Program-made: the position numbers and the translations under genes
Assembly: GCA_905480285.1 (NCBI GenBank)
Contig: CAJQPT010000157.1
Coordinates: 1 to 33,446, forward strand
DNA: 33,446 nt
Source: an uncultured bacterium
GTDB taxonomy: Bacteria; Planctomycetota; UBA1135; GCA-002686595
Direction: 5' to 3'
The notes under the pieces: generated by a model
What the model was told of the DNA's origin: nothing
Databases searched by the model: none
Seen by the model: the letters and a program-made list of their open reading frames with translations, nothing else
Shown: one piece after another, positions 4,277-30,557 of the stretch
How positions within the stretch are numbered: the stretch's first letter is position 1
Layout of the letters: every line of letters starts with the position of its first letter

Positions 4277-4312
4277 GCCCCTCGTCGGGCGCCCCTCGTC
4301 GGGCGCCTCGTC
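4277..4312. repeat. 14-bp tandem repeat, 2.6 copies
   Basis: Two identical 14-bp units GCCCCTCGTCGGGC (4277-4304) and a partial third to 4312, starting 16 bases after the yraN stop. The unit itself is nearly self-complementary at its ends (GCCC...GGGC). Confidence 0.85.
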
Positions 4313-4326
4313 AAGGGGGTCCATCG

Positions 4327-4396
4327 CGCGGAGCCCACCGCGCGGAGCCCATCACGCGGAGCCCATCACGCGGAGCCCATAACGCGGAGCCCACGG
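4327..4396. repeat. 14-bp tandem repeat, 5 copies
   Basis: Five copies of CGCGGAGCCCATCA start at 4327, 4341, 4355, 4369 and 4383, exactly 14 bp apart, with variation only in the last three bases. The array ends directly against the 4398-4440 hairpin. Its unit is unrelated to the one at 4277. Confidence 0.9.
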
Positions 4397-4397
4397 A

Positions 4398-4440
4398 ATG
4401 ACCCCGTCCGGACGCGTGAGGCGCGTCTGGACGGGGTCAT
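4398..4440. terminator. long bidirectional terminator-like hairpin
   Basis: ATGACCCCGTCCGGACGCG pairs with the inverted copy ending in GGACGGGGTCAT across a TGAG loop. The stem is about 19 bp with a single G-U-type mismatch. It lies between convergent yraN (+, stop 4260) and the HTH gene (-, stop 4485), where a bidirectional terminator is expected. No T-run follows on either side, so intrinsic termination is inferred from position and stem strength. Confidence 0.65.
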
Positions 4441-4484
4441 GTGCCGGAACAGCGGCCCAGCGGGATCGCCGGGCCGGGGGGCGA

Positions 4485-5090
4485 TTACTCGGCGTCCGAG
4501 GCGTCAGCGTCAGCGTCCGTCGCGTCAGCGTCCGCGGTCGCGGCCGGAGCCATGTTCGCTTGATCGAACTCGGCCCCGAACATGCCGGCGACGCCCTTGG
4601 CGAGGCCACCTGCGTTGCCGGTCGAGAGCGAGAGCAGAATCGGAGCGGCGAGCAACAGCATCAGGGAAGAGATCATGAGCATGCCCGTCAACCAGGCCGG
4701 CTCCAGATCCTCATCGTCCTCCATGGACGCTGCCGCTGCGGTGCGCTTGACCGGCCGTGCAGAAGAACTGCTCCGCGAGGTCGGCGCCGACTCGATGGGC
4801 TCGGGATCGTCCACAAGGGTCTCGACGTCGAGCTCCTGCGTGGCCATTCCGGCGTCCGCGTCGAGGTCGGAATCGTCCTCGAAGACGAGCTCCTCCACGG
4901 TCTCGTCGAGATCCGCGACGTCGGAGTCCAGCTCGGAGCGAAGGAGTTCCACGTCCGCGCGGCGGATCTTCATGGTGTCTCCCTTCCGGAAGGCGCGGAG
5001 CTCGCCCTCCGACACAAGTCGCTTGAGCTCTTCTTCCTTGAGCTTCAGTTCGTCGAGGGCTTCATCGAAGCTGTAGAAATCGTCGGCCAC
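4485..5090 (-). CDS. helix-turn-helix protein with C-terminal membrane segment
   Basis: From GTG 5090 the protein has 201 residues. Residues 4-50 (FYSFDEALDELKLKEEEL, then RLVSEGELRAFRKGDTMKI) resemble the excisionase/MerR-like winged helix domain found in many planctomycete proteins. An acidic linker (about 52-130, rich in D/E/S) follows, then one membrane helix (about 133-155: LTGMLMISSLMLLLAAPILL). A short tail of Asp-Ala repeats ends the protein. This suggests a membrane-tethered DNA-binding or protein-binding factor, but the helices may serve another role and no target is known. The GTG at 5096 is also in frame, but the AAGGAG at 5096-5101 is five bases from GTG 5090, which decides the start. 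The gene lies downstream of the 154-residue gene on the same strand. Confidence 0.8.
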   Translation of the reverse strand: MADDFYSFDEALDELKLKEEELKRLVSEGELRAFRKGDTMKIRRADVELLRSELDSDVADLDETVEELVFEDDSDLDADAGMATQELDVETLVDDPEPIESAPTSRSSSSARPVKRTAAAASMEDDEDLEPAWLTGMLMISSLMLLLAAPILLSLSTGNAGGLAKGVAGMFGAEFDQANMAPAATADADATDADADASDAE

Positions 5091-5095
5091 GGGCA

Positions 5096-5101
5096 CTCCT
5101 T
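5096..5101 (-). promoter_or_regulatory. Shine-Dalgarno deciding the HTH gene start
   Basis: AAGGAG on the minus strand, five bases upstream of GTG 5090. It overlaps the alternative GTG at 5096, making the downstream GTG the likelier initiator. Confidence 0.75.
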
Positions 5102-5157
5102 ATTGGGGGGGCTCTGGGGCAGGACTGGGCGCGAGCGCCGTCCTACCGGGGGTCTGG

Positions 5158-5172
5158 TCCGGTACAACCGGA
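5158..5172. other. short inverted repeat between two minus-strand genes
   Basis: TCCGGT-ACA-ACCGGA, a perfect 6-bp dyad with a 3-base centre. It lies 35 bases after the stop of the 154-residue gene and about 68 bases before the HTH gene start. It could be an operator or a weak mRNA hairpin. Confidence 0.4.
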
Positions 5173-5206
5173 TCCGGGGAATCGAGGGGGAGCGAATACT
5201 CCCTTG

Positions 5207-5671
5207 CTAACGTTCGTCCACTTCCACGTCGAAGCGTGCTTCGAGTTCCTTGTAGGGAAGAGGGCGACCGTCCAGCGTGGTCTTGTCGTTGAACCCGTCG
5301 AGCTGCAGGTCGAGGTCGATCCTGCGGGCCGCGACGAGCTTGATGTTCTGGGTACCCGACGCTCCGCCCGAAGCCTGGTACACGGCGAGGTGCGGGTTCA
5401 CCGAGTCGATGACGTAGAGCACGGACTGGCCCGTGATGTCGACGCCCGTCACCGCGATCATCCGGTTGTTGGAATCGGCAGCCATCCCGCTCGCGCCCAT
5501 CGGGACGGGGCGAACCACTGTCGTCTCCTGGGGCCCGGGGCTCGCGATCGCAGGCCCGAGCAGCATGAGGGACGCGCAGGACGCCACCGCGCCCGCAGCG
5601 AACCAGGCAATCCGCTGGGCCCTGCCGGACCCGGCGCGGAGATCTTTCTCGGTCGACTCGTGTGACTGCAT
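5207..5671 (-). CDS. conserved planctomycete membrane-anchored protein
   Basis: A 154-residue protein with a short cytoplasmic N-terminus and one membrane helix or uncleaved signal (about 22-44: AWFAAGAVASCASLMLLGP). The soluble domain contains RMIAVTGVDITGQSVLYVIDSVNPHL in its middle. It also has a late KLVAARRIDLDLQLDGFND and an acidic PYKELEARFDVEVDE end. I recognise this pattern as a small family recurrent in planctomycete genomes next to helix-turn-helix proteins, but no function is known to me. The repeated hydrophobic strands suggest a small beta domain outside the cytoplasm. It sits 57 bases downstream of the second CNNM gene on the same strand and may be the distal part of that transcript. 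Confidence 0.8.
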   Translation of the reverse strand: MQSHESTEKDLRAGSGRAQRIAWFAAGAVASCASLMLLGPAIASPGPQETTVVRPVPMGASGMAADSNNRMIAVTGVDITGQSVLYVIDSVNPHLAVYQASGGASGTQNIKLVAARRIDLDLQLDGFNDKTTLDGRPLPYKELEARFDVEVDER

Positions 5672-5728
5672 ATCGGCGCCTAGCCTAACGGGAACACCGG
5701 GTTGCGGCCATGCTCCGGCAAAATCCGC

Positions 5729-6769
5729 TCACCGGACCACCTCGTGGGAGATCCGCTCGAGGAGGTCGTTGACCGAGACGAGGCCGAGGATGGCCTCCCG
5801 GGGGAGCGGGCCAGAGTCTCCGGCCACGTCCTCCGTGACCACCAGGGCGATCCGCCGCCCGCTGGCCGCGAAGGTGTTCAGCGCCCGATCCACCGGGACA
5901 TCCCGGGCGAGGCGCGGTAGGGGCCTGATCTGCTCCAGCACATCCGGCAGCTCGCCCTCCTCTCCCAGGGCGTGCCAGCGGTGGAGGATCTCCATCTGGT
6001 GGACGTAGCCCTCGATCCGCAGCAGCCCCCCCTGGTCCTCCAGGACCGGGAGACGCGAGAAGCGAGACTCGCGCACCCTCTTGAAGAGGTCTTCTCTGGC
6101 CGCCCCCCGGTCGAGGACCGCGACCTCCCCCCAGGGCACCATGCTCTCGGAGACCGGGATCGCGCGGAGGCGCAGGGCGTTGGCGGCGAGGGCCTCCGCC
6201 CGCTGGGAGAGGACCCCATGTCGGCGCCCCTCGGCGATGAATCCCAGCACGGCAGCCCGTCCGCCGACGGGCGCGGTCACCTCTGCGCCGAGCCCAAGGA
6301 GCCGCTCCAGGGCCAGCGTCACCAGGCGCAGCGCTCGCTCCAGGGGCCAAAAGAGGATCCTCGAGAAGGCGATGATCGGCACCACCAGCGCCGTGGTGCC
6401 GTGGGGCCGCTGCCGGAAGACGTCCTTGGGGAGGGCCTCACCGAACAGGAAGACGAGCGGGGTCAGCGCAGCGGTGACGACGAGCGCGATCGTCGCAGGG
6501 TCGTGCGAGCCGGTCAGCTGCACCGTCATCGACTCGGCCACGTGGGTGGCGAGCTCGAGCGCGAGGTTATTGCCGATCAAGATGGTGATCAGCAGCGCGC
6601 TCTCGTTCCTCAGCAGCCAGCGCATCAGCACGGCGCGGCGCGAGCCACTCCGCGCGTCGATGTCGACCTGCACGGAGGAGAGGCTGTAGAAGCCCGTCTC
6701 CGACCCGGAGTAGGTGGCGCTCAGGCCCACGAGGAGGAGCAGGAGCGCGGATTCCACGAGGATGCTCAT
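5729..6769 (-). CDS. CNNM/CorC-type membrane protein 2 (DUF21 + CBS)
   Basis: A 346-residue protein of the CNNM/CorC (HlyC/CorC) family, linked in other bacteria to Mg2+ or other divalent cation export. The DUF21 membrane domain covers about residues 1-155, with the family marks ATYSGSETGFYS (18-29), NNLAL (67-71) and GEALPKDVF (110-118). A CBS pair spans about 205-345 (MVPWGEVAVLDR, then SRLPVLED and GLVSVNDLLERISHEV). The CorC_HlyC C-terminal domain is absent, unlike in its upstream partner. The ATG overlaps the stop of the upstream CNNM gene as ATGA, so the two are probably translated together and may form a heteromer. The transported ion cannot be told from sequence. Confidence 0.92.
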   Translation of the reverse strand: MSILVESALLLLLVGLSATYSGSETGFYSLSSVQVDIDARSGSRRAVLMRWLLRNESALLITILIGNNLALELATHVAESMTVQLTGSHDPATIALVVTAALTPLVFLFGEALPKDVFRQRPHGTTALVVPIIAFSRILFWPLERALRLVTLALERLLGLGAEVTAPVGGRAAVLGFIAEGRRHGVLSQRAEALAANALRLRAIPVSESMVPWGEVAVLDRGAAREDLFKRVRESRFSRLPVLEDQGGLLRIEGYVHQMEILHRWHALGEEGELPDVLEQIRPLPRLARDVPVDRALNTFAASGRRIALVVTEDVAGDSGPLPREAILGLVSVNDLLERISHEVVR

Positions 6770-9701: not shown

Positions 9702-9737
9702 CGTCTTTCTCTGGGAGGGAGGGCAGCTGAGAGCCGC

Positions 9738-10880
9738 TCAGCCCTGTGAGCCGATGGTGCTCATCATCTCCGTCAAAGGCAAGATGAGCGCGACCACGAG
9801 CCCGCCGATCAACACCGCCATGAGCACCAGGATGGCCGGCTCAAGCACCTTGAAGAGCGCCGCGAGCTTCCTGTCAACCTGTTCATCATAGGCGTCCGCG
9901 ACCTTGAGGAGCATCGAGTCGAGCTCCCCCGTCTCTTCACCGACGTCCACCATGTTGGTGACGACGTCATCGAAGAGCCCGGTCTCACCCATCGGGCGCG
10001 CGATGCCCTCACCCTCGCGGACGGTCCGGCGGATGTCCTCGACGGCGTCCACCAGGACCTCATTACCGCTCGCGTCCCGGACGATCCCGAGGGCGTCGAG
10101 GTGAGGTACGCCGGCCTGAACGAGCGTCCCAAAGGTGCGGGCGAACATGGCCGTCATCGAGCGGTTCAGCACCGTCCCGAGGAACGGAATCTTCAGCAGG
10201 ACGGCGTGCCAACCCCGCCGGTACCCACGGTTCCGACCGATCGCAACCTTGTGCCCGACGAAGGCGAGCGCCGGCACACCGAAGACGAGGTACCAGTACG
10301 ACGTCATGAAGCCGCTGAGGCCGAGGAGGATCAGCGTCGGCTCAGGGAGGTCGACATCGAAGCTCTTGAAGATCTCATCGAAGGTCGGGATCACGAAGAT
10401 GATCACCGCGGACACGACGACCACCGAGACCATGATCAGGATCGTCGGATAGATGACCGCCTGCTTGATCTTCGAGCGGATATCGGCGGCCTTCTCGCGG
10501 AATTCGGCGAGGCGATCGAGCACGCGGTCCAGCACGCCGCCGACCTCGCCCGCGCGGACCATCGACGAGTAGAGGGTGTCGAAGACCTTGTCGTGCTTCG
10601 CCAGGGCATCCGAGAGGGGCGCTCCGCCGGAGACGTCCTCCGTGATCTCACGGAGGATGTCCTTGAACGGCCCCGGTTCGGTCTGCCCCTCGAGGATCGT
10701 CAGGGCCTTCACCACGGGGATCCCCGCGTCGGAGAGCGTGGCGAGCTGCACCGTAAAGTCGGTGACCAGGGCGGCGTTCACGCGGCCGCCCTTTCGCTTG
10801 CGCGCGGGGGCCTCCCCGGGGGCGCCGGCTACCTGGGCCCGCTTCGGCGCGGGGGTGGATCGCTGGATTCTCTTTGCCAT
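9738..10880 (-). CDS. type IV pilus / type II secretion inner-membrane platform protein (PilC/GspF)
   Basis: A 380-residue GspF/PilC family protein, the inner-membrane core on which the cytoplasmic ATPases act during pilus or pseudopilus assembly. Two T2SSF domains are visible: about 38-165 (FTVQLATLSDAGIPVVKAL, then MVRAGEVGGVLD, and IKQAVIYPTIL) and about 245-365 (FARTFGTLVQAGVPHLDAL, VDVGEETGELD, LEPAILVLMAVLIGG). Membrane helices lie at about 142-166, 180-210 and 347-370. The N-terminal 35 residues are basic and Pro/Ala-rich. The ATG is one base past the stop of the ATPase gene upstream. Sequence alone does not settle pilus against T2SS, but the neighbouring pilT argues for a type IV pilus-like system. 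Confidence 0.93.
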   Translation of the reverse strand: MAKRIQRSTPAPKRAQVAGAPGEAPARKRKGGRVNAALVTDFTVQLATLSDAGIPVVKALTILEGQTEPGPFKDILREITEDVSGGAPLSDALAKHDKVFDTLYSSMVRAGEVGGVLDRVLDRLAEFREKAADIRSKIKQAVIYPTILIMVSVVVVSAVIIFVIPTFDEIFKSFDVDLPEPTLILLGLSGFMTSYWYLVFGVPALAFVGHKVAIGRNRGYRRGWHAVLLKIPFLGTVLNRSMTAMFARTFGTLVQAGVPHLDALGIVRDASGNEVLVDAVEDIRRTVREGEGIARPMGETGLFDDVVTNMVDVGEETGELDSMLLKVADAYDEQVDRKLAALFKVLEPAILVLMAVLIGGLVVALILPLTEMMSTIGSQG

Positions 10881-10881
10881 A

Positions 10882-12564
10882 TCAGACGAGCGTCTCCCGG
10901 ATGACTTCTTCGATCGTGGTGCGTCCCTCAGCGGCAGCCCGCAGGCCTGCCTCCCGGAGGGACCTCATGCCGCCGTTCAGCGCCGCCTCACGTAGCTCCT
11001 CGATCGAGGCGTTGGCCTCGATCAGCCGGCGCACCTCATCGTCGATCGTCATGATCTCGAAGAGGCCCGTCCGGCCACGATAGCCCGTGTGGTGGCACTT
11101 CTCGCAGCCCTTGCCGTAGGACAGCGTTCGCCCCCGGACCAGGTCGGCGTCAGGGCCCAGCTCCATGAGGACTTCCTCATCTGGCTCGAACTCGATGCGG
11201 CAGTCCGAGCAGACCGAGCGAACGAGCCGCTGGGCCACCACCGACTCAAGGGTGGCCGAGATGAGGAAGGGCTCCACCCCCATGTCCACGAGCCGCGTCA
11301 CCGTGCTGGGCGCGTCGTTGGTGTGGATGGTGGCGAACACCGTGTGGCCGGTCAGGCTGGCCTCCACGGCCGTGGCGCCTGTCTCCTTGTCGCGGATCTC
11401 GCCCACGAGGATCTTGTCTGGATCCTGGCGCAGGATCGAGCGCAGCACGCTCGCGTAGGTGACGCCGATCTCGTCGTTGATGGGCACCTGAACGATCCCG
11501 GCGATGTCGTACTCCACCGGGTCCTCCACCGTGATGATCTTCGTGTCCGGAGAGTTGGCCTCGGAGAGCATCGCGTAGAGCGTGGTCGTCTTGCCCGAGC
11601 CCGTGGGCCCGGTGACCAGCACGATGCCGTGGGGCAGCGTCGTCATCGCCCGCAGAGCCGCCTCGTCGTGGGGCTGCAACCCCAGCGCCTCGAGGTCCAG
11701 GCTCACCGCCGAGCGGTCGAGCACTCGCATCACGCAGCCCTCACCCGCGGCCCCTGGCAGCGTCGCGACGCGCAGGTCCACGGGGCGCCCATCGATGGCC
11801 AATTCGATGCGCCCGTCCTGCGGCACCCGCCCCTCGGTGATATCCAGATCGGCCATCACCTTGATGCGGCTCACCAGCGGCACGGCCAGGTGCGGAGGCG
11901 GCGCCTCGACCTCGTAGAGCGAACCATCGACGCGGTACCGGATGCGGAACACGTCCTCGTACACCTCGAAGTGCACGTCGCTCGCACGGTCGCGAATCGC
12001 GCGGTGCAGGATGGAGTTGAGCAGCCGCACCACCGGCTTGCTCTGGGCGGCGCTCTCGGCGTCGCCGCCAATCGAGGCGTTGGCTGCGTCCGCGATGGCG
12101 TCCGCCAGCGTGGACTCCTCGCCGTAGAGCTCCAGGACCAGGGAGCGGATCAGCTCCCCGTCCGCGACCACGGCGCGGGTCTCGTAGCCGGTGGTGAAGG
12201 AGAGGTCCTCGAGCACCGCGGTGTTCATCGGGTCCGCGAGCGCCACGAGCAGGACGCCTCCCTCGAGGCGAAGGGGCAGGACGCCGTAGGCGTGCGCGGC
12301 CGAACCATCGATGGTGCCGATCGCCTCCTCCGTCGGGCGCTCCTGGCTCAGGTCAACGGTCTCCATCCCCGCCTGCTCGGCGAGGGCCAGCGCGAGGTCC
12401 CCGGGCGTGCACGCCCCCATCTCGACCAGCGCCTGACCGATCAGCCCGCCGTGGGTGCGCTGCTCGCCGAGGGCGGCCTGCACCTGACTCTCACGGATGA
12501 TCCCGCGGGCCTTGAGGACCTGCCCGAGGAGCGGGCGGCCCGGAGAGGGTCCTCCTTCGGTCAC
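10882..12564 (-). CDS. PilB/GspE-family assembly ATPase 1
   Basis: A 560-residue traffic ATPase that would power pilin or pseudopilin extension. The N-terminal MshEN-like domain covers about 10-150, followed by the N2/CTE region (SDVHFEVYEDVFRIRYRVDG, about 195-214). Walker A is GPTGSGKTTT (319-328). The Asp/His boxes are normal (VEDPVEY; RQDPDKILVGEIRD, with Walker B ending at 392; IHTNDAP). The zinc tetracysteine motif is CSDC (452-455) and CEKC (487-490). All catalytic features are intact. The start is GTG 12564, with GGAGG seven bases upstream inside pilT, and overlaps the pilT stop as GTGA. Confidence 0.94.
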   Translation of the reverse strand: MTEGGPSPGRPLLGQVLKARGIIRESQVQAALGEQRTHGGLIGQALVEMGACTPGDLALALAEQAGMETVDLSQERPTEEAIGTIDGSAAHAYGVLPLRLEGGVLLVALADPMNTAVLEDLSFTTGYETRAVVADGELIRSLVLELYGEESTLADAIADAANASIGGDAESAAQSKPVVRLLNSILHRAIRDRASDVHFEVYEDVFRIRYRVDGSLYEVEAPPPHLAVPLVSRIKVMADLDITEGRVPQDGRIELAIDGRPVDLRVATLPGAAGEGCVMRVLDRSAVSLDLEALGLQPHDEAALRAMTTLPHGIVLVTGPTGSGKTTTLYAMLSEANSPDTKIITVEDPVEYDIAGIVQVPINDEIGVTYASVLRSILRQDPDKILVGEIRDKETGATAVEASLTGHTVFATIHTNDAPSTVTRLVDMGVEPFLISATLESVVAQRLVRSVCSDCRIEFEPDEEVLMELGPDADLVRGRTLSYGKGCEKCHHTGYRGRTGLFEIMTIDDEVRRLIEANASIEELREAALNGGMRSLREAGLRAAAEGRTTIEEVIRETLV

Positions 12565-13610
12565 AGCCGCGCCTCCAGATCCCTGGGGTCCTGGGCGTAG
12601 TCGAGGGCCGTCTGCGCAGAGATCTCGCCTTCGCGCACGAGGTCCATGAGGTAGTCGTCCAGGGTCACCATGCCCATGCGCTTGGAGGTCTGGATGGTGG
12701 ACTGGATCTTGTTCGTCTCGTTCTTCCGGATGAGGTTCGCGATGGCGGGGTTGTTGATCATCACCTCGAAGCCCGCCACGCGCCCCTTGCCGCCGTCCTT
12801 CGGCATGAGCACCTGGCTCACCACCGCGACCAGCGCGACGCTGAGCTGGGCCCGGACCTGCTCCTGCTGGTTCGCCGGGTAGGCGTCGATGATCCGGTTG
12901 ATCGTCCGGGCGCTACCCGTGGTGTGCAGCGTGCCGAAGACCAGGTGGCCCGTCTCGGCTGCGGTGAGCGCCGCGGAGATGGTGTCCAGGTCTCGCATCT
13001 CCCCGAGCAGGATCACGTCGGGGTCCTGGCGAAGGGCGCGCCGCATGGCCTCGGGGAAGTCCGGCACGTCCTGGCCGACCTCGCGCTGCGTGACCAGCCC
13101 CTGGCCGTGGCGATGATAGAACTCGATCGGGTCCTCGATCGTGATGATGTGCCGGTCGAGGCTCTGGTTGATCCAGTCGATCATCGTCGCCAGCGTGGTG
13201 GACTTGCCTGAGCCGGTCGGCCCGGTGACCAGGACCAGGCCCCGCGGGCGGCGCAGCAGCTGCTGCACGGTGTCCGGCAGGCCGATCTGATCGAACGTCA
13301 GGAGGTCGCTCGGGATCAGGCGCAGGACGGCGCCGAAGCGCCCGCGCTGCTTCATGCAGCTCACCCTGAAGCGGGTCCCCGACTCGTGGGCCAGGCCGAT
13401 ATCGGTGGTGCCCACCTCCTGCAGCTCATCCCAGTGCTTGTCGTCGCAAAGCTCACGACACCAGCGCTCCGCCGTGGCGTCGTCGACCGTCTCCGTGGAC
13501 AGGGACACGAGCTTGCCGTCGACCCGTCCGACAGGTGGCCGGCCGGGGTTCAGGTGGAGGTCCGAGGCGCCGACCTCGATCGACAGGGTCATCAGTTCCT
13601 TGGCATTCAT
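12561..13610 (-). CDS. pilT: twitching motility retraction ATPase PilT
   Basis: A 349-residue PilT-like ATPase, the usual motor for type IV pilus retraction. It begins with the PAS-like N-domain (SIEVGASDLHLNPGRPP, VGRVDG). Walker A is GPTGSGKS (130-137), the Asp box IITIEDPIEF, and Walker B VILLGEMRD (199-207). The His box is TLHTTGSARTINRIID. The PilT C-terminal AIRNLIRE motif appears here as AIANLIRKNE. It has no tetracysteine motif, as expected for PilT against PilB. PilT could equally serve a retractile adhesin or uptake pseudopilus. It lies 48 bases downstream of the second PilB-like gene and is translationally coupled to the first. Confidence 0.94.
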   Translation of the reverse strand: MNAKELMTLSIEVGASDLHLNPGRPPVGRVDGKLVSLSTETVDDATAERWCRELCDDKHWDELQEVGTTDIGLAHESGTRFRVSCMKQRGRFGAVLRLIPSDLLTFDQIGLPDTVQQLLRRPRGLVLVTGPTGSGKSTTLATMIDWINQSLDRHIITIEDPIEFYHRHGQGLVTQREVGQDVPDFPEAMRRALRQDPDVILLGEMRDLDTISAALTAAETGHLVFGTLHTTGSARTINRIIDAYPANQQEQVRAQLSVALVAVVSQVLMPKDGGKGRVAGFEVMINNPAIANLIRKNETNKIQSTIQTSKRMGMVTLDDYLMDLVREGEISAQTALDYAQDPRDLEARL

Positions 13611-18131: not shown

Positions 18132-18134
18132 TGC

Positions 18135-21598: not shown

Positions 21599-22011
21599 GT
21601 CAGGAGACGAGGCTAGCGGGGAAGGAGCCCGAACGCGACGCGCAAGCACGCGCCGGCCGGAAGTCCCGCCTCCTCGGCCGTCTCCCGGCCCAATTCGAGT
21701 ACGGGATCATGGCTGCGGCACCCGCTCGGGGACCGGAGCTCTGTGGCCGTGCCCTAACCTCAGGAGCTTCGGGCCGCGGGAGCGGCGCGTCGGCCCGAGG
21801 AGGGAGCAGCGCCGAGGCTCGCCGCCTCGAAGCCGAGACTGCGGGAGCCCCACCTCCCGGCGTGCCTCACGCTAGCCCCCTCATCGAGGCGGCCTGCGCT
21901 CAGCGCAACCTCCTCTACTGGAGCCACTCAGCGGGAGTCACTCAGCAGCAGTGACTCAGCGGCAGTCACTCAGCAGCAGTGACTCAGCGGGGTGATCCCA
22001 GAGCGCGGAGC
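21599..22011. other. noncoding gap with 14-bp repeat array
   Basis: About 410 bases between the kinase start and the stop of the GGDEF-like gene. I see no credible gene. The kinase operon promoter should lie in its left part, but no clear -35/-10 pair stands out. The right end carries the 21926-21990 tandem array. Confidence 0.5.
21926..21990. repeat. 14-bp tandem repeat, about 5 copies, forming stem-loops
   Basis: ACTCAGC recurs at 21926, 21940, 21954, 21968 and 21982, exactly 14 bp apart; the unit is ACTCAGC(A/G)GSAGTS. Alternate units are complementary, giving two identical hairpins AGTCACT-CAGCAGC-AGTGACT (7-bp stem, 7-base loop) at 21936-21956 and 21964-21984. The array lies 22-86 bases past the stop of the GGDEF-like gene and could act as its transcript end. 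Confidence 0.85.
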
Positions 22012-23019: not shown

Positions 23020-23596
23020 GGGAGATGTCGTGGCAGGGCCCCCCTTTCGAAGGGGCGATCTGGGGTCTCGTTGCGGGGCCGGTGCCCGCTCTTGGACGAG
23101 GGTGCAGATCTGACCCCTCGGATTCAAACGGCACGGGGCTGAATCCGGGACCGTGCCCATGGGCCCATCCCGCGGGCCGGAGGTCGACCCGGAGGTCGGC
23201 CCTTTCAGCGGGGGCTTTCGGCGCCGGGCTTTGGGCGCGGGGTGATCGGCGCCGCGCCCGCGGAGCCGGGCTCTCTGATCGGGCCCTTCGGGTCAGGTAC
23301 CTCCGGATCCAAGACGGTGCGACGGCACCCAGCGCAGACGATGGCGCCCTCTCCTCTGCGACCACCGGCATCCCGGGCGAGCATCGCGGGCTGGCCCTCC
23401 CCGCCCTGGAGGCCGCTCCGAAGAGCCCAGCGGGAGCACCTCGCCTGTGAGCTCGGCCTAGCTGTAAGCTCGGCCCAACGGCCAGCTCAGCTCAACGGCC
23501 AGCTCAGCTCAACGGCCGGCTCAGCTCAACGGCCGGCTCAACGGATCAGCACGCCGAGGCCACGGACGGCCCCGGCTGGCGAGCCGAACGAGCAGC
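23020..23596. other. noncoding gap upstream of the GGDEF-like gene
   Basis: About 577 bases without a credible gene on either strand. It holds the 17-bp repeat array at 23476-23544 and GC-rich simple sequence around 23170-23240 (GGAGGTCG repeated, GGCTTTSGGCGC repeated). I see no RNA gene. Confidence 0.5.
23476..23544. repeat. 17-bp tandem repeat, about 4 copies
   Basis: CAACGGCC starts at 23476, 23493, 23510 and 23527 (17 bp apart), and a shortened unit starts at 23539. The unit is CAACGGCC(A/G)GCTCAGCT. Related GAGCTCGGCC/AAGCTCGGCC copies extend it leftwards to about 23449. The array lies 53-121 bases past the yebC stop. Confidence 0.85.
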
Positions 23597-24467: not shown

Positions 24468-24579
24468 CGATGGGATCAAAACGGTCACGCCCGCCTCCGC
24501 GGGAAGCCCAACCCGAAGGCCAGAGCTCGCGCAGGGGCGGGCGTGGGGAGGCGGAGCGTCCAGCGGGACGCGACGCAGA

Positions 24580-24978: not shown

Positions 24979-24996
24979 TGGAATCTGGTCCTTGGA

Positions 24997-25428: not shown

Positions 25429-25490
25429 GGGTCGCGTGGCCGCATCGTGAGCGGCGCGGGGGGCCCTGGAGAGGCGACTACCGGAGGGCA

Positions 25491-25527
25491 GCCGTCCTCT
25501 TTGGACGGCGCTGGCGGGGGCCGCCAG
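25491..25527 (-). promoter_or_regulatory. tandem hairpins in the rplM leader
   Basis: Two adjacent perfect stems: GCCGTCC-TCTTT-GGACGGC (25491-25509) and CTGGCGG-GGG-CCGCCAG (25511-25527, plus-strand reading). They lie 63-99 bases upstream of the rplM ATG and inside the transcript predicted from the 25579-25607 promoter. They could be the site of L13 autoregulation, as known in other bacteria, or a terminator for the gene ending at 25653. Confidence 0.5.
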
Positions 25528-25578
25528 ACGCGTAGCACGACGCCGGGACAGAGGTCTCGGCGCAGCGCGAGGGCGAGA

Positions 25579-25607
25579 AGATTAGAGGCCCGGCCACTCC
25601 GCCGCAA
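25579..25607 (-). promoter_or_regulatory. sigma70-type promoter for rplM-rpsI
   Basis: On the minus strand TTGCGG (25607-25602) is followed by a 17-base spacer and TAATCT (25584-25579). This is a near-consensus pair with ideal spacing in a very GC-rich background. Predicted transcription start is near 25572, about 145 bases before the rplM ATG. Confidence 0.7.
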
Positions 25608-25652
25608 CGGTCGAGGGGCGATTCCTCCACGGGCCTTCGGGCCTGAACCGGG

Positions 25653-27395
25653 TCATCGGCCCGTCGATGGAGCCCCTCCGGTGAGCCGGAGCCAGACCTC
25701 GGCGCCCCGCTCACCGGGGTCCTCCGGGCCCGCACTCCCCCCAGGGTGGCCCGTCCCGGACCCCTCCAGGCCCCGATAGCCCTCGCCTGACAGCCGCCCC
25801 AGGATCACCCAGTCGGCACCTCCCATTCCCCCATCAGGCCCTCGGACAGGCCCTCCAGCGGGCCCCCCACCGGGCCCCCCACCGGGCCCTCCGTGGGCCC
25901 AAGCGGGGAGGCCCGCCGACCGCCCTCCAGGCCCCGCAGCCGGCGAGGAGAGCCGATCCGCTCCGCCGGCAGGAGGCGCGGGAGCCCCGCCATCCCCGAC
26001 GCCCCACGGACCCCGGGAGCTCAGGGCTCGCCACCCGAGAGGCTCCTCGCGGATCCACGCAGGGTCCATGTCGCCCCAGCCGTTGAGCTCGGGCCTCAGC
26101 ACCCTCAGCCCCGGGTCGAGGGGCCGCAACAGATCCGCGATGACCCCCTCATCGAGGACCAGCTCGAGCCGGCCGCCGGGAACCGTCGCGTCGAGTGAGC
26201 ATCGCCGAAGTCCGCTGCCCCACAGCTGAATCGCGGCCCGAAGCGAGTCCAGCCCCTCGATCACAAGTCGCCGCCTCACGCGGTCGATCTGTAGCCAGGC
26301 ATCACTCCCGGCGGCCCCCTCGAGGACTCGGACGCAGGGTGCCCCCGGCGCACCGCCACCCAGGATCGCTGGCCTCCTGCCCCCGTCGAGCGGAAACGAG
26401 AGCCCCGCGAGGCCAAGGGTCAGGAGGCACCCGAGCACCGACCCGGTGATGGCGCCCGTCCGGGGCCTGCGCGCACGGAGCCGCGCCCAGGCGCCGAGGA
26501 GGCAGAAGAGGCCGCCCCAGGCCACCAGGAGCCCAGACGTCGGCGGCGCGCGGCGCCATTCGCGGGGCACGGGCGGCCGCGGGCGGGCGGCGAGCGAGGG
26601 GGGCGGCGACCACGGGGGAACCACCTCGGCGCGGACGCGCGACCCCGGTCCCGGCGGCAGGACCCCGCCCACCTCCAGGGCGACGGGCCCCGGGGCCCTG
26701 TCAACGGGGGCTGGAAGCCAGGCCAACAGACGACGCGTGGCCCCCTGACCGAGCGCTGCGCGGATCTCCATCGGGGGAGCATCGCCGATGCGCACCTCCC
26801 CTGAATCCAGCGGCCCCTCCAACTCAAGGGTCACGGGCAGCAGCTCCAACGCCGGGCCGTGGGCCAGCGGTTGGGGCTCAGCCCCTCCGGCTCCGAGCGA
26901 GCCCACCAGCGCGGCAAACGCCACGGCGGCCGCGGCTCCGGGCCACCCCCCGAGCCTCCCGGCGAGCACGAGCGCGGCCGCGGCCCCGCCCAGTGCCAAC
27001 GCTCCCCCGGCGCCAGACACGCCGCTTGCTCCGCTTGCGACAGAGGCTGCGGGGGGCCCGGGGCCTCCCGCCAAGCCGACGCCAGCGGCGGACGCCGCGA
27101 GGACAGCGAAAAGCCCCACCGAGGCGGCCGCCACCGTGAGATCGAGCCCGCTCCGGGCGAGGGTGGTTCGGGCCGTTGGCGGCCATCCGAAGCAGCCGAC
27201 ACCCGCCAGCAACAGCAGCACGAGAGCGCCGTCGATCCCCCGCCAGGGAGCCAGGTCAAGCCCGAGGGCCTCCGGGGCCGTGAGCACGACCGTGGCGATC
27301 ACCCCGAACAGGAGAGCGCGGAGAATGAACCCTCCCGCGCCAGCGTGCGCGGCCCCTGCCTCTGGCGCGGCCCCTGGCCCTCCCCGCGGGCTCAA
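25653..27395 (-). CDS. polytopic membrane protein of unknown function
   Basis: From TTG 27395, overlapping the upstream stop as TTGA with GGAAGGGGG just before it, the protein has 580 residues. About five membrane helices lie in the first 170 residues (23-41, 54-71, 86-110, 131-147, 151-168). An Ala/Gly/Val-rich outer domain follows (about 175-285), then two helices (287-305 and 317-335). A soluble C-terminal domain (about 345-460) has WLQIDRVRRRLVIEGLDSLR. The tail (about 465-580) is Gly/Pro-rich, partly encoded by a 12-bp repeat (25859-25894, giving GGGPGGGP). I recognise no family. The frame stays open upstream to 27761, but that part lies within the FtsQ-like gene and looks like shadow sequence. 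Confidence 0.7.
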   Translation of the reverse strand: MSPRGGPGAAPEAGAAHAGAGGFILRALLFGVIATVVLTAPEALGLDLAPWRGIDGALVLLLLAGVGCFGWPPTARTTLARSGLDLTVAAASVGLFAVLAASAAGVGLAGGPGPPAASVASGASGVSGAGGALALGGAAAALVLAGRLGGWPGAAAAVAFAALVGSLGAGGAEPQPLAHGPALELLPVTLELEGPLDSGEVRIGDAPPMEIRAALGQGATRRLLAWLPAPVDRAPGPVALEVGGVLPPGPGSRVRAEVVPPWSPPPSLAARPRPPVPREWRRAPPTSGLLVAWGGLFCLLGAWARLRARRPRTGAITGSVLGCLLTLGLAGLSFPLDGGRRPAILGGGAPGAPCVRVLEGAAGSDAWLQIDRVRRRLVIEGLDSLRAAIQLWGSGLRRCSLDATVPGGRLELVLDEGVIADLLRPLDPGLRVLRPELNGWGDMDPAWIREEPLGWRALSSRGPWGVGDGGAPAPPAGGADRLSSPAAGPGGRSAGLPAWAHGGPGGGPGGGPAGGPVRGPDGGMGGADWVILGRLSGEGYRGLEGSGTGHPGGSAGPEDPGERGAEVWLRLTGGAPSTGR

Positions 27396-28393
27396 CGGCC
27401 CCCTTCCGGGCTTCCTTCCCAACGAGCCTTGAAGTCGAGCACGTCGGCCTCGGAGAGGAGCACCGGACGGTCGAAGCGCGCGTCGAGCAGCCGCCAATCG
27501 TCGCCCTCCAGCCCTCGGCCGAGCGCCAAGCGCAGGTGGCCCCACTTGAAGTTCACCGGCAGCTCGCCCTCGTGAAGCGGATGCGGCGGGCGCCCGAAGA
27601 ACACGCGCCGCCCCTCCTCCAATTCGATCACCACCCCGCCAGGGAGCCGCCGGGGTGACACGGATCCTCCCTCCCGGTCGAAGATGGGCGCATCGGCGGC
27701 CGAGGCGTCGATCACGACCCTCCCCAGCTCTCGAAGATCGTCGGGCCCCAGGTGCCTCCACATGGAGTCCGCGACGTCGAGCGCCGCGAGGAGCTCGGGG
27801 ACGCTGAGCTTGTCGCCAGGGCGAACCTGCCCCTGCTCGCGATCGAGGAGGTCGAGGGGGCCCAGGGCAGGCAACCAGCCGCCGTAGGCCAGGTGCGGCG
27901 TGATCGAGTACCCACCGAGGACGGTCCCGTCGCTCGAGACGGGCAGGAAGTCTCGCCCCCCCACGCGAACGCAGGCCACGGGCTCCCGGAGCCGAACGGG
28001 CAGGTTCAGCCCGTCGGGCCAGCGGACGCTCGGCGGGCCCACGGCCTCGATGAAGGGCAGCGCCTCCACCTGGGAGGCGAGCTCGGCGATGGCCTCCTGA
28101 TCATCCGCGTCCACGGACTCGGCCTCGAGCAAGAGCTGCTCCAGGGCCTCGTACCACTCGTCGTTGAGCCAGGGCGCGTCGGTCTTGAGGCCGTAGCGGG
28201 TGACGTCGATGCGGGCCAGCCCGCGATCGCGGGCGTCCGCCTCAAGCCACCGGAGGCCGAAGATCAGCGACAGGAAGAGCAGCGCGAGGGGCACCCACGC
28301 GGGGACTCGTCCGGCCTCGGAACTCCACGTCACCCCCTCGCCCCCGGCCGGGCGCGATGCGTGCGTGTTCCGAAGCGGCGAGTGATCGATCAA
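27392..28393 (-). CDS. FtsQ-like single-pass protein with POTRA-type domain
   Basis: A 333-residue protein starting at TTG 28393 (GTG 28333 is an alternative with a G-rich site before it). After a short cytoplasmic part there is one membrane helix (about 33-50: WVPLALLFLSLIFGLRWL). The outer part at about 105-165 reads QVEALPFIEAVGPPSVRWPD, then GLNLPVRLREPVACVRVGG, then SSDGTVLGG. This follows the FtsQ/DivIB pattern: 'P-hydrophobic-V, RWPdtL.v.v.ErePvA, lvd.dG.v'. A second part has DLRELGRVVID and GGVVIELEEGRRVFFGR, like the FtsQ beta domain. FtsQ is a divisome scaffold. The resemblance is by motif only and the identity is tentative. It is coupled to the 580-residue membrane protein and follows the 101-residue gene after 54 bases. 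Confidence 0.6.
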   Translation of the reverse strand: MIDHSPLRNTHASRPAGGEGVTWSSEAGRVPAWVPLALLFLSLIFGLRWLEADARDRGLARIDVTRYGLKTDAPWLNDEWYEALEQLLLEAESVDADDQEAIAELASQVEALPFIEAVGPPSVRWPDGLNLPVRLREPVACVRVGGRDFLPVSSDGTVLGGYSITPHLAYGGWLPALGPLDLLDREQGQVRPGDKLSVPELLAALDVADSMWRHLGPDDLRELGRVVIDASAADAPIFDREGGSVSPRRLPGGVVIELEEGRRVFFGRPPHPLHEGELPVNFKWGHLRLALGRGLEGDDWRLLDARFDRPVLLSEADVLDFKARWEGSPEGGR

Positions 28394-28447
28394 CGGTCCC
28401 GGGGGACGAGCGCGGCTCCGGTCGCCCGCGCCGTGCTCGGTCCCCGC

Positions 28448-28753
28448 TCAGTTCCGCGTCGGGGCGAGCTGAGTGTCGATCGCGGCCCCGGGGACCTCGA
28501 TCGGAACGGCGCTCGTCCCCTCGGAGACGGCCTGCGGGCCGAAGTTCCCGCCAGAGCGGCCGCCCATCCGCTTGGTGGCTTCCTCGATGAAGAGGTCGAG
28601 GGCGACCTGCATCTCCACCACCTGCTCCCGAGAGAGCGCGACGGCCTTGGCGCCGCCCTGGGAGTGAAGCTCGTGGCCGAGGAGGCGCGAGACGAGCTTG
28701 AGTTGCGCCAGGTGGCGCTCGAGGTGAGTTCCGTGTTTGTGCTGTGAATTCAT
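28448..28753 (-). CDS. small helical protein of unknown function
   Basis: A 101-residue protein. Residues 8-62 are amphipathic helix (GTHLERHLAQLKLVSRLLG, then LSREQVVEMQVALDLFIEE), with a polar, Gly-rich tail. No domain is recognised; it may be a cytoplasmic coiled-coil adaptor. The start is well supported: GGAGGG on the minus strand at 28757-28762 is three bases before the ATG. It is the likely first gene of a three-gene run with the FtsQ-like and membrane protein genes. Confidence 0.7.
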   Translation of the reverse strand: MNSQHKHGTHLERHLAQLKLVSRLLGHELHSQGGAKAVALSREQVVEMQVALDLFIEEATKRMGGRSGGNFGPQAVSEGTSAVPIEVPGAAIDTQLAPTRN

Positions 28754-28910
28754 GGTCCCTCCGGGGGCGTGCGGACCCCTGGTCTATCCCATGCCCGGGG
28801 CCGGAACAAGGCCGAGGCCTGAGCTTGCGAAGGAAGTCCGATCGGAGAGCCCGCCACCGGCCGGCTTCCGCCGACGATTCCGGCCGCGAGGGCCGCCCGT
28901 GCGGGCCCCA

Positions 28911-28982
28911 CTGCTGGCCTTACCGCTGACCTCACTGCTGACTCCACTGCCGACTCCACTGCTGACTCCACTGCTGGCCCCC
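28911..28982. repeat. 12-bp tandem repeat, 6 copies
   Basis: Six adjacent 12-bp units with consensus CTGCTGACTCCA, slightly diverged at the ends of the array. Confidence 0.88.
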
Positions 28983-28997
28983 ACCAGCGCGGCCACC

Positions 28998-29049
28998 GGG
29001 TTGGCCTACCGGGTTGGCCTACCGAGTTGGCCTACCGAGTTGGCCTACC
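28998..29049. repeat. 13-bp tandem repeat, 4 copies
   Basis: Units GGGTTGGCCTACC, GGGTTGGCCTACC, GAGTTGGCCTACC, GAGTTGGCCTACC, then a diverged fifth to about 29062. The array begins 15 bases after the 12-bp array but has an unrelated unit. Confidence 0.9.
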
Positions 29050-29184
29050 GGGTCGGCCACTCCGGGCCTGGCCGCATCGGCATCGGGACACCGGCCGGGC
29101 CCTTCCTGGCGTCAGAGCGTGCGCCGACCGGAGCGCGGGACGACTGGAGGGGTCCGGGATCGCTCGCCCGAGCGGACTTCCTTC

Positions 29185-29240
29185 CGGGGTCCCACTTTCG
29201 GGGTCCCACTCTCGGGGTCCCACTCTCGGGGTCCCATCGC
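29185..29240. repeat. 14-bp tandem repeat, about 4 copies
   Basis: CGGGGTCCCACTTT once, CGGGGTCCCACTCT twice, then a partial CGGGGTCCCAT, 14 bp apart from 29185. It is about 246 bases past the stop of the secreted protein gene. Confidence 0.9.
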
Positions 29241-29485
29241 CGCGACGCCCTGGATTGAACCGGCGAGCCGGGCCCCCCCGCTCGAGCGGCCTGGAGCCGA
29301 GGTCCCCGGGTGCTCGGTAGCCGAGGTGCCCGAGGGCCCGAGGGCCCGGGAGGCCGGGAACTCGGGAGGCCGGACCTGAAGCCGCTCACGCCGCACCAAG
29401 ACCTGCCCCGCCGGTCAACGGCGCCGTGGTCGGCGGGCCCCCTGCTCCCCCTGTCCGCGATGCCGGATAGAGGGGAGGCATGGGA

Positions 29486-30469
29486 TCACTGGAAGTCGAC
29501 CGTCAATCCATCGGTGAAGTTGGACGTCGGCTGCCCGGCGACCGAGTCTCGATACCAGGCCTGGAAGCTCCAGGTGTCTCCTGCCGCCGCCGACGCGAAT
29601 CCAGTCGGCTGGGGAATCGCCGTCAGGTCGAGGGGGAGAGCGATCTCCCCGACGGAGTCCGCCTGCTGGATCTGCCCGGGGCCCACATAGCGCCCGATCG
29701 AGCCGCCAAGGCAGAGGTTGCCCTGGCTCCCGCCGGGGTTCGAGGCGAGCCCGGTGGTCTGGCTGGTGAGGAAGAACCCGAATGATCCGGGCGCCAGGCT
29801 GCTCGCCACCAGGGTCAGGTTGTTATCCGACGCGACGGCGCTGCCCTGGGCGCTGATCGAGGCCTCGAGGCCGAGGCTGTTCTGGTTGGCGCCGCAGTAG
29901 TTGGCGCCGAGCCCCGGGAGCGTCACGGAGACCTCGTCCACGAAGAACTGGGCCAGGCTTCCGCTGTTCGCGCCGTTGACCACCGCGAACTGCAGCGTCA
30001 CGCCGCCGCTGACATCCGACCCCGCCACCGCGGTGAAGACGAACGGCTGCCAGGAGCTGGTCAGGTTCAGGGGTCCACCGGTGAGGATCTCAGCCGACGA
30101 GACGCCGCCGCCGTTGATCTCGGAGAAGAACTCCGCGAACGCCACGCCGCCGTTGGCGAAGGTGCCCTTGGCCGAGAAGCTGATCGTGATCACGTCCCCC
30201 GGGCTCACCACGCCACCCCCGAGGTTCGCCTGCTTGATGACGGCCGCGGTGGTCTGGTCGGGGTTGAAGACCTCCCCTCCGAAGCTGCCGCTGCTGGCAT
30301 CCGTCGTGGCGGCGAAGGTGGAGTTGGGAGTGGGGAAGGACACCCACGAGCTGGTGTCGCCGGTCTCGAAGCCACCGTTGGTCGTCAGGTCGGTCTGGGG
30401 CGCAGCCGTCGCCACGCCGAGGGACAGGGCGACAGGGACGGCGAGGAGCGTGGGAGCAGAGAGCTTCAT
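29486..30469 (-). CDS. secreted CBM-like protein with planctomycete C-terminal domain
   Basis: A 327-residue exported protein. The signal peptide is MKLSAPTLLAVPVALSLGVATA, with a likely cut before APQ. Residues 26-185 (TTNGGFETGDTSSWVSF, KQANLGGGVVSPGDVITISF, SLAQFFVDEVSV) match the carbohydrate-binding CBM4_9-like/DUF642 jelly-roll pattern. Residues 190-327 (YCGANQNSLGLEASISAQGS, GSFGFFLTSQTTG, GSQGNLCLGGSIGRYVGPGQ, WSFQAWYRDSVAGQPTSNFTD) form a domain I know from many secreted planctomycete proteins. Two cysteines (C192, C254) may form a disulfide. Function is unknown; surface or envelope attachment is inferred. The start lies inside a repeat (30469-30557). The base use is A/T-richer at the third position in Ser/Thr/Asn-rich parts only because of composition. 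Confidence 0.85.
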   Translation of the reverse strand: MKLSAPTLLAVPVALSLGVATAAPQTDLTTNGGFETGDTSSWVSFPTPNSTFAATTDASSGSFGGEVFNPDQTTAAVIKQANLGGGVVSPGDVITISFSAKGTFANGGVAFAEFFSEINGGGVSSAEILTGGPLNLTSSWQPFVFTAVAGSDVSGGVTLQFAVVNGANSGSLAQFFVDEVSVTLPGLGANYCGANQNSLGLEASISAQGSAVASDNNLTLVASSLAPGSFGFFLTSQTTGLASNPGGSQGNLCLGGSIGRYVGPGQIQQADSVGEIALPLDLTAIPQPTGFASAAAGDTWSFQAWYRDSVAGQPTSNFTDGLTVDFQ

Positions 30470-30557
30470 GGTGGTCAGGCCCGTAGGTTGATCAAGGCCA
30501 TGACCCGTAGGTTGATCAAGGCCATGAGTTGGTCAAGGCCGCGTGGTGGTCAGGCCC
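30469..30557. repeat. nested direct repeats upstream of the secreted protein gene
   Basis: Two identical 24-bp units CCCGTAGGTTGATCAAGGCCATGA (30480-30503, 30504-30527) and a partial third (GTTGGTCAAGGCC, to 30540). The block is flanked by exact 14-bp copies of TGGTGGTCAGGCCC at 30469-30482 and 30544-30557, 75 bp apart. The first copy includes the start codon of the secreted protein gene. TTGATCAA inside each unit is a perfect palindrome. Confidence 0.85.

Follow-up and report, generated by a model that had tools for sequence, protein, structure and literature searches.

INTRODUCTION

Satellites of bacterial genomes, head-to-tail arrays of units of at least 10 bp, were surveyed by Subirana and Messeguer in 2019 (PMC6749651). 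About 40% of them are unique in sequence, and their birth is ascribed by the authors to DNA replication anomalies; the densest bacterial entry carries 23 satellites per Mb, and group medians range from 0 to 3. In the same survey, short-repeat satellites of Burkholderia (12, 14, and 16 nt) derive from 6- to 8-nt microsatellites and form families. Prokaryotic genomes have also been surveyed for close direct repeats, and in some of them intergenic tandem repeats are over-represented (PMC4060949); the TAACTGA direct repeats of Beggiatoaceae are abundant, short, and intergenic, with one shared consensus (PMC4679880). In yeast deficient in rad27/FEN1, duplications mediated by direct repeats turn ABA into ABABA, with B of 1 to 91 bp and A of 1 to 21 bp, and include an intergenic 16-bp unit repeated two to four times (PMC5677150).

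Here, we describe short tandem arrays in a 33,446-nt stretch of DNA (the window) and in the genome it belongs to, G000, a Planctomycetota MAG of the same genus as the isolate Poly30. The arrays share with the satellites of PMC6749651 the head-to-tail arrangement of units of at least 10 bp, with those of Burkholderia a GC-rich genome and similar unit lengths, with the PMC4060949 survey an excess of intergenic tandem repeats, and with the Beggiatoaceae repeats their abundance as short direct repeats in the gaps of a bacterium. Unlike the latter, they have no common consensus that we could find. Their junctions are identical in anatomy to those of rad27/FEN1-deficient yeast, i.e., duplications between short direct repeats, but the yeast size range is wider. 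The sharp 12- to 18-bp band of unrelated noncoding units is a feature of G000 that goes unreported in the portion of PMC6749651 drawn on here; in the portion of PMC4060949 used, no simple-repeat pattern has units longer than 11 nt, and units measure 6 to 11 bp in the strong cases, versus 12 to 18 bp here.

RESULTS

Arrays of the window

Arrays were detected with Tandem Repeats Finder (TRF), and intergenic arrays were counted at scores of at least 50. Genes were called with a home-made caller that misplaces some window genes (for example, a minus-strand gene at 3865–4221 was called over a plus-strand UPF0102 frame), and distances to stop codons were taken from open frames and Pfam matches. The main features are as follows:

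3137–3256: gap with weak 7- to 12-bp tandem rows (scores 32 to 45)
4276–4307: 14-bp array, 2.3 copies, 16 bases past the UPF0102 stop (4260, plus strand); exact two-copy duplication with 4 bases of junction microhomology
4321–4393: 14-bp array, 5.2 copies, with a unit unlike that of the neighboring 4276–4307 array
21925–21991: 14-bp array, 4.7 copies, alternatively a 28-bp higher-order form with 2.4 copies; ends ~20 bases from the stop of a GGDEF gene (22012, minus strand)
23212–23272: weak 14-bp array, 4.4 copies, 68% match, in the same gap as the next array
23467–23540: 17-bp array with 4.4 copies, lying 3′ of yebC; ends ~57 bases from the YebC/TACO1 stop (23597, minus strand)
28909–28942 and 28925–28976: 12-bp array in two overlapping TRF rows (2.8 copies, score 40, and 4.3 copies)
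28991–29058: 13-bp array, 5.3 copies
29185–29236: 14-bp array, 3.7 copies
30480–30527: perfect two-copy 24-bp duplication immediately 5′ of a minus-strand ATG (30469); it falls outside the 12- to 18-bp band and lacks junction microhomology

All eight of the intergenic arrays listed in the initial annotation were thus recovered by TRF, which shows head-to-tail tandem arrays with units of ~10 bp or more, as in bacterial minisatellites. With the home-made caller, 12 arrays scoring at least 50 fall into window gaps. Arrays at 25849 and 26572 are probably coding, being inside a 702–amino acid open frame (25653–27761); the status of the array at 32392, inside a 762–amino acid open frame (31134–33422), is ambiguous. 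The initial annotation also placed several arrays within ~20 to 120 bases past a stop codon. This holds for the arrays at 4276, 21925, and 23467 but not for those at 28925–29236, whose nearest called stop (29486) is ~250 bases or more away, nor for the duplication at 30480.

Arrays are in excess in the genome of the window and patchy among its relatives

The initial annotation proposed comparing arrays with shuffled gaps, and the excess was borne out: 129 intergenic arrays were found in a 759-kb sample of the 4.5-Mb MAG, from which six pieces had been dropped, versus 4.0 in shuffled gaps. An earlier 540-kb sample with no piece dropped gave 92 arrays (score of at least 50) versus 2.35. Tandem duplications of 12 to 18 bp and of essentially unrelated sequence are strongly over-represented in the intergenic DNA of this species. 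With a criterion close to that of PMC6749651 (at least four copies and units of 10 to 200 bp), G000 contains 42 arrays in 0.759 Mb (~55 per Mb; the home-made caller assigns 12 to genes), a figure obtained with a detector different from the one used in that survey. The same criterion yields four arrays in 0.16 Mb of the sister species G003, one in 0.30 Mb of Poly30 (G007), two in 0.22 Mb of G024, and none in G002, G008, or G004.

At the TRF threshold, Poly30 has 15 arrays versus 0.4 in shuffled gaps and G024 has 14 versus 1.4, both at densities below that of G000. Array-rich members are G000 and G003; G002, G004, G005, and G008 are array poor, with two intergenic arrays in G002 and none in G004 or G008. 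Among 20 wider relatives sampled at 16 to 20 kb each, arrays whose unit is not a multiple of three were present in G009 (one), G024 (three), G033 (one), and G028 (one) and missing from 16, and among eight further relatives sampled at 3 to 8 kb each, one genome had one array; samples of this size are only indicative. The array habit is patchy among close relatives.

Inside genes, arrays occur in G000 at 0.139 per kb (TRF score of at least 50), compared to 0.133 in G002, 0.111 in G004, and 0.075 in G008. Since coding arrays are about as dense in the array-poor G002 and G004, these figures do not prove that duplication became more frequent throughout the G000 genome. Coding loci of G000 are found exclusively at multiples of three (11 at 12 bp, 19 at 15, 9 at 18, 6 at 21, and 5 at 24; no other lag between 5 and 39 is occupied).

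Unit lengths mostly fall between 12 and 18 bp

The clustering of unit lengths at 12 to 17 bp seen in the window is real genome-wide and is better stated as 12 to 18 bp. In G000, 95 loci have lags of 12 to 18, compared to 20 at lags 5 to 11 and 12 at lags 19 to 25. The counts for lags 10 through 20 are 2, 3, 18, 5, 17, 14, 14, 14, 13, 0, and 3, and the two halves of the sample contributed 48 and 47 band loci. Because the exact-run criterion requires more than two copies at lags below 10, only the edges at 11/12 and 18/19 are free of detection bias; five isolated 11-bp duplications indicate that the lower edge is not absolute.

The band includes 35 of 46 two-copy loci and 29 of the 35 loci with more than 3.7 copies; its hold is weaker on loci of 2.7 to 3.7 copies (11 of 22). 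Its presence in the two-copy class makes the birth step its most likely source. Arrays within the same gap of G000 do not tend to have similar periods (permutation test over 28 gaps, P = 0.48). An origin from 6- to 8-nt sub-repeats, as in the Burkholderia satellites described in PMC6749651, was rejected: loci at lags 5 to 11 are the minority, units of 13, 15, and 17 bp are also present, and there are no families. A few single arrays may have had a microsatellite-type origin.

Units are unrelated in sequence and fold no better than random intergenic DNA

The view that every array has its own unit, with size kept and sequence free, was essentially confirmed genome-wide. Only one of 8256 array pairs has a common 12-mer, versus 2.6 in random windows; shared 7- to 10-mers are slightly above random (24 versus 16.4 for 10-mers), and any similarity among units exceeds that of random intergenic words slightly at most. 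Among 6-mers, CAGCGG ranks first, with 15 of 129 units versus 4.7 expected (P = 1e-4), which is not significant among ~2080 tests. Given loci without a common consensus, a shared-consensus repeat (a Leptospira-type transposed satellite or a REP-like element) was rejected, as was a mobile repeat. When six window gaps were compared by BLAST to the sampled genome, four gave no hit, the only match of gap A was to its own inverted repeat, and gap C matched at 69.5% along one stretch covering its array; in the whole genome, the 4321 array matched a single second place, at 82% over 39 bases. Apart from the gap C stretch and this second place, the arrays are, as initially noted, not mobile-element like.

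Of seven window stretches, three have good RNA folds (z scores of −3.4, −3.5, and −3.0). Across 115 arrays, however, units are not hairpin biased compared to random intergenic units made tandem (P = 0.96). As such pseudo-arrays fold equally well, an origin from hairpins or quasi-palindromes was rejected, as was an RNA-structure role. Sense-strand skew was not detected in 80 arrays (mean of −0.025, P = 0.40).

Arrays lie in length-variable gaps

In G000, arrays occur at 2.81 per kb in convergent gaps, 1.37 in tandem gaps, and 0.58 in divergent gaps (P = 0.001 for convergent versus divergent). Tandem gaps contain 21, 16, 18, 14, and 8 arrays in successive parts from the stop to the start end. 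Avoidance of promoter DNA accounts better for the closeness of arrays to stop codons. G000 alone demonstrates the gap-type bias, the G003 and Poly30 samples being too small for confirmation; the Poly30 arrays (three divergent, three tandem, none convergent) are off the G000 pattern.

Orthologous gaps were compared to those of G003, whose aligned DNA is 85% identical overall. With one gap of more than 1500 bp excluded, all six array gaps differed in length by more than 20 bp, versus 2 of 49 other gaps (P = 1e-6), an association that is partly built in because arrays themselves add length; with array bases subtracted, four of six array gaps still differed, versus 2 of 49 others. One of these two differing gaps without a called array is 3137–3256, and the window gap 4222–4484 failed the flank test of this comparison. 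Non-array gaps also differed by more than 20 bp in 3 of 25 cases for G002 and 2 of 22 for G008. Arrays lie in length-variable gaps and, in G000, are sparse in divergent ones. No decayed array is visible in the extra DNA of array-bearing gaps, and array growth was rejected as the source of all of it, since no residual local repeats were found there.

Nine array gaps have an orthologous counterpart in G003, and one of them keeps the same unit there. In the window, this is the array at 21925–21991, whose copies and copy identity differ in G003 (a single locus, compared between sister species). Nothing was called opposite the 4321–4393 array in G003, G002, or G008. The gap of the 23467–23540 array contains different 13- to 21-bp arrays in G003 and, in G002, G008, and G005, 79 to 92 bp between aligned edges with no array.

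Most duplication junctions carry microhomology

Most isolated two-copy duplications have 2 to 5 bases of junction microhomology in an ABA to ABABA pattern. At least 2 nt were present in 17 of 24 cases versus 26% in the null (P = 6e-6), in 12 of 16 in G000 alone, and in 15 of 21 when one duplication per gap was counted (P = 2e-5); the remaining 7 of 24 have 0 or 1 base. Because of this microhomology, the local duplication mechanism suggested in the initial annotation fits the data best.

In 74.8 kb of aligned DNA, 3 of 52 insertions of at least 5 bp in G000 are tandem-duplication-like (13, 14, and 14 bp), as is 1 of 26 in G003 (9 bp). In the array-poor pair G002/G008, the corresponding figure is 3 of 12 (9, 18, and 27 bp). 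Clean births are few in the G000-G003 alignment, and the pair is too diverged for an indel catalog.

No gene separating array-rich from array-poor genomes was found; eight candidate families do not discriminate. MutS family proteins occur in 41 of 41 genomes, ExoVII and a Y-family polymerase in 10 of 10, and matches to the PolX thumb and SbcD C-terminal models in 0 of 10. RNase H (PF00075) is absent from both rich (G000 and G003) and poor (G002, G004, G005, and G008) genomes and present in G001, G006, G007, and G024. Whereas rad27/FEN1-deficient yeast lacks its 5′ flap nuclease, the 5′ nuclease domain family PF02739 is present twice in each of 10 genomes. In the alignment of Pol I residues 1 to 330, two columns split G000 and G003 from G002, G005, and G008; both fall in a segment where the other five genomes vary as well.

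DISCUSSION

We think it somewhat probable that the arrays arise by a lineage-specific, microhomology-mediated short tandem duplication in the 12- to 18-bp range, tolerated in unconstrained gaps, and that they are mutational products rather than functional elements. During DNA synthesis, a segment between two 2- to 5-bp repeats 12 to 18 bp apart would be copied twice, either through slipped mispairing of the nascent end or because a 5′ flap that escaped processing re-anneals and is ligated. Subsequent slippage could raise the copy number to between 3 and 9, and old arrays would decay by point mutation while new ones arise. Purifying selection would clear arrays from promoters and, except for multiples of three, from genes. 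The size limits may stem from the geometry of whichever enzyme or intermediate is at work. More tentatively, some lineages of the family could have a duplication process with a built-in size range, in which an unrecognized enzyme or replication intermediate copies 12 to 18 nt twice, independently of sequence beyond the 2- to 5-bp microhomology, and which is gained or lost between sister species.

A less likely, though serious, alternative is that duplication proceeds at an equal rate in all kin, and that G000 and G003 tolerate arrays since selection leaves more intergenic DNA unconstrained in them (small population, drift). The similar density of coding arrays in several array-poor kin fits this scenario, as do the location of arrays in length-variable, expanded gaps and the slightly higher intergenic fraction of G000 (0.128 versus 0.094 to 0.111 in G002, G004, and G008). 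However, the intergenic DNA of G008 (13.4 kb, P = 1e-8) and G004 (10.3 kb, P = 6e-7) is free of arrays, frame-preserving 12-, 15-, and 18-bp coding loci are most frequent in G000 (5.89 per 100 kb versus 0 to 3.81 in six other genomes), and tolerance alone does not explain the size band.

Judging from work on paired nicks in plants, duplications of fixed size and free sequence would also be expected from paired staggered breaks ~12 to 18 bp apart that are filled in and rejoined, or as target-site duplications of a departed element; the junctions with 0 or 1 base of microhomology fit such an origin. This origin is improbable given the microhomology at most junctions, the lack of an insert between copies in the window arrays, and the distribution of Ku (PF02735), found in none of nine same-genus genomes and in 7 of 41 overall.

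We regard as very improbable that the arrays are functional, i.e., selected for length as 3′-end RNA structures, terminator insulation, spacers, or protein-binding sites. The well-folding window stretches and the enrichment in convergent gaps of G000 are in line with such a function, but units fold no better than tandemized random ones, are seldom kept in orthologous gaps, and have similar lengths inside genes, as multiples of three. The structural or spacing role raised in the initial annotation is likewise unsupported, the lengths of array-bearing gaps being unconserved and arrays sparse near gene starts and in divergent gaps of G000. An artifact of short-read MAG assembly is hardly credible: the assembly consists of 339 contigs and is 84% complete, but arrays are also found, at lower density, in the single-contig Poly30 and two-contig G024 genomes, and copies differ by point mutations (median match of 87%).

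The birth of minisatellites has mostly been inferred from a few laboratory reporters. G000 offers many independent natural births with a sharp length spectrum, along with nearly syntenic sister species without arrays, so that a comparison of a few genomes could test the birth step and what causes it genetically. Should the band be mutational, it would point to a physical ruler acting on slippage or flap ligation in bacteria. The arrays are also a warning that the repeat content of bacterial gaps can shift greatly between close species without function.

Tandem arrays in the window and its genome

All eight arrays that the initial annotation had placed in intergenic gaps of the window were recovered by Tandem Repeats Finder (TRF) with the positions and unit sizes it gave. 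Genes of the window assigned with Pfam are as follows:

Before the 4276 array: UPF0102 gene
Adjoining the 21926 array: GGDEF protein gene
Adjoining the 23467 array: YebC/TACO1 gene
Among the genes near arrays: protein kinase gene
9738–13610, minus strand: one T2SSF and two T2SSE-type genes, consecutive

As contig C157, the window forms part of a metagenome-assembled genome, G000 (4.5 Mb, 339 contigs). Its YebC protein is 95 to 97% identical to those of MAGs, some titled Planctomycetota, and 81% identical to that of the isolate Poly30.

An inverted repeat at 4398–4440 (83.7% over 43 bases) adjoins the 4321 array, and, by eye, the matching gaps in the sister species G003 and in the same-genus genomes G002 and G008 hold hairpins differing in sequence; these are perhaps two-way terminators whose shape is kept while the sequence turns over. 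At 30472–30556, also by eye, a third, imperfect copy comes after the 24-bp two-copy duplication, and the word GTGGTCAGGCCC is repeated on the flanks, which suggests nested duplications over a 5′ leader.

The abundance of arrays was estimated in 70 pieces of G000, including the window; six were dropped, as three were low in GC and the other three read as N, leaving 64 pieces and 759 kb, in which genes were called roughly with a purpose-written codon-usage caller. We observed 129 intergenic arrays (TRF score of at least 50), compared to 4.0 under first-order (dinucleotide) resampling. The density is 1.33 per kb (97 kb intergenic), and arrays occupy 7.6% of intergenic bases, with a median of 3.0 copies and a median match of 87%. 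Of the 129, 117 come from sampled DNA other than the window, and at least one occurs in 38 of the 64 pieces. By a survey-like criterion (at least four copies, unit of 10 to 200), there are 42 arrays in 0.759 Mb, 30 of them intergenic. This corresponds to ~55 per Mb, whereas the top bacterial entry of a published satellite survey, made with a different detector, is 23 per Mb (PMC6749651).

Unit lengths form a 12- to 18-bp band

To characterize unit length free of TRF thresholds, we recorded, for every lag (the distance at which the sequence matches itself), all exact runs of at least 10. In G000, intergenic loci at lags 12 to 18 numbered 18, 5, 17, 14, 14, 14, and 13, compared to 2 and 3 at lags 10 and 11, 0 and 3 at lags 19 and 20, and fewer than one at each of lags 10 to 20 in shuffled sequence. 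The proposed clustering of unit lengths is thus real: 95 loci fall at 12 to 18, 20 at 5 to 11, and 12 at 19 to 25, and the two halves of the sample contribute 48 and 47 in-band loci. Two copies suffice at lags of at least 10, so detection does not account for the 11/12 and 18/19 edges; at shorter lags, the test requires more than two copies.

Intergenic multiples of three are not favored (40 loci at three lags versus 44 at the other four, window excluded). Coding loci of G000 at lags 5 to 39 occur at multiples of three only, mostly 12, 15, and 18. The band is already present in two-copy loci (35 of 46) and in those with over 3.7 copies (29 of 35), is weaker in the 2.7- to 3.7-copy class (11 of 22), and holds 20 of 63 loci whose run is below 0.8 of the lag. 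When G003, Poly30, and the wider relative G024 were pooled, 11, 29, 6, and 10 loci were found at 5 to 11, 12 to 18, 19 to 25, and 26 to 32, respectively. Poly30 also has a second lag group at 29 to 34 (6 of 20 loci) beside the band. We found no report of such a band of unrelated noncoding bacterial arrays in titles and abstract openings of the open-licence literature.

The units themselves are at most slightly alike across G000. Among 8256 array pairs, 82 have a common 9-mer (random intergenic windows, 64, SD 9), 24 a common 10-mer (16.4, SD 2.1), and one a common 12-mer (2.6). The 4321 array recurs at one place in the whole genome (82% over 39 bases), within another array. Idealized arrays, built from each of 115 units in turn, folded no better than random units (p = 0.96); three of seven window stretches had a folding z of about −3 or below.

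Most isolated duplication junctions carry microhomology

We collected 24 isolated exact two-copy duplications with units of 10 to 40 and no sub-period, 16 from G000 and 8 from three other genomes. Extra matching bases at the junction numbered 0, 1, 2, 3, 4, 5, and 8 in 4, 3, 4, 5, 4, 3, and 1 duplications, respectively. Microhomology of at least 2 was present in 17 of 24, compared to 26% for random duplications in the same gaps (p = 6e-6), in 12 of 16 from G000 alone, and in 15 of 21 when one duplication per gap was counted (p = 2e-5). These junctions match the ABA to ABABA pattern, duplication between short direct repeats, described for rad27-deficient yeast (PMC5677150).

Array position and gap length

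In G000, array density is 2.81 per kb in convergent gaps (24 arrays), 1.37 in tandem gaps (79), and 0.58 in divergent gaps (12), and in tandem gaps arrays dwindle toward the start codon (21, 16, 18, 14, and 8). This gap-type bias is shown in one genome, G000: the numbers for G003 (2 convergent, 8 tandem, and 2 divergent) are too thin to confirm it, and those for Poly30, also thin, depart from the pattern (0, 3, and 3).

Gene order is common to G000 and its relatives. Array-free gaps were within 20 bp of the relative's length in 47 of 49 cases for G003, 22 of 25 for G002, and 20 of 22 for G008; among those of 100 bp or more, 2 of 17 differed from G003. Array gaps differed by more than 20 bp in 6 of 6, 4 of 4, and 3 of 3 cases, and still did so in 4 of 6, 4 of 4, and 3 of 3 after array bases were subtracted. 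For G002, four array gaps could be compared; together they span 1828 bp in G000 versus 819 bp in G002, with arrays making up 371 bp of the former; the remaining extra DNA in array gaps gave no residual repeat signal. Nine of the 82 array gaps in the G000 sample have an orthologous gap in the G003 sample, and the 21926 gap alone keeps its 14-bp unit. The 23467 gap has several arrays in G003, all different; five others are array-free, another shows just a weak 7-bp array, and the last falls within a probable gene and has different arrays.

Distribution among relatives and possible causes

Intergenic arrays per kb numbered 0.85 in G003, 0.55 in G024, 0.26 in G006, 0.19 in G002, and 0.13 in G005; Poly30 gave 0.88 in a first sample and 0.52 in a larger one. 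None were found in G008, G004, or the just 1.8 kb available for G001. Density differed from G000 in G002 (p = 5e-5), G008 (p = 1e-8), and G004 (p = 6e-7) and did not differ in G003 (p = 0.06). The same picture comes from a count independent of gene calls, which took periods of 8 to 40 other than multiples of three. Per 10 kb, it gave the following: G000, 1.05; G003, 0.88; Poly30, 0.70; G004, 0.30; G002, 0.26; and G008, 0.08.

Inside genes, TRF arrays per kb are about equal in G000 (0.139), G002 (0.133), and G004 (0.111) and lower in G008 (0.075); the similarity of the first three counts against a genome-wide mutator. Exact 12-, 15-, and 18-bp coding loci are most frequent in G000. Under relaxed selection, duplication would be equally frequent among kin, and G000 and G003 would tolerate its products; we consider this account of the arrays rather unlikely, though it gains slightly on our main reading because one genome alone shows the gap-type bias.

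None of eight gene families separates array-rich from array-poor genomes, and in G000 and G003 the nuclease domain of Pol I is unaltered at positions otherwise conserved; therefore, no cause of the size band was found there.

G000, G002, G003, G004, G005, and G008 (4.2 to 4.6 Mb) gave no match to the RNase H family PF00075, which is present in G001, G006, Poly30, and G024 (6.9 to 7.7 Mb). Models of the SbcD C terminus and the PolX thumb had no match in the nine same-genus genomes and G024; among 14 control genomes, they match in 6 and 5, respectively.

Overall, we hold with moderate confidence that the arrays arise by microhomology-mediated slippage or flap ligation within a 12- to 18-bp size range. 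The size band and the junction pattern are directly demonstrated. Either process would yield tandem duplications of that size, presumably through an enzyme and a ruler that set the range, and selection, for which a filtering role is supported, would then act on the resulting arrays.
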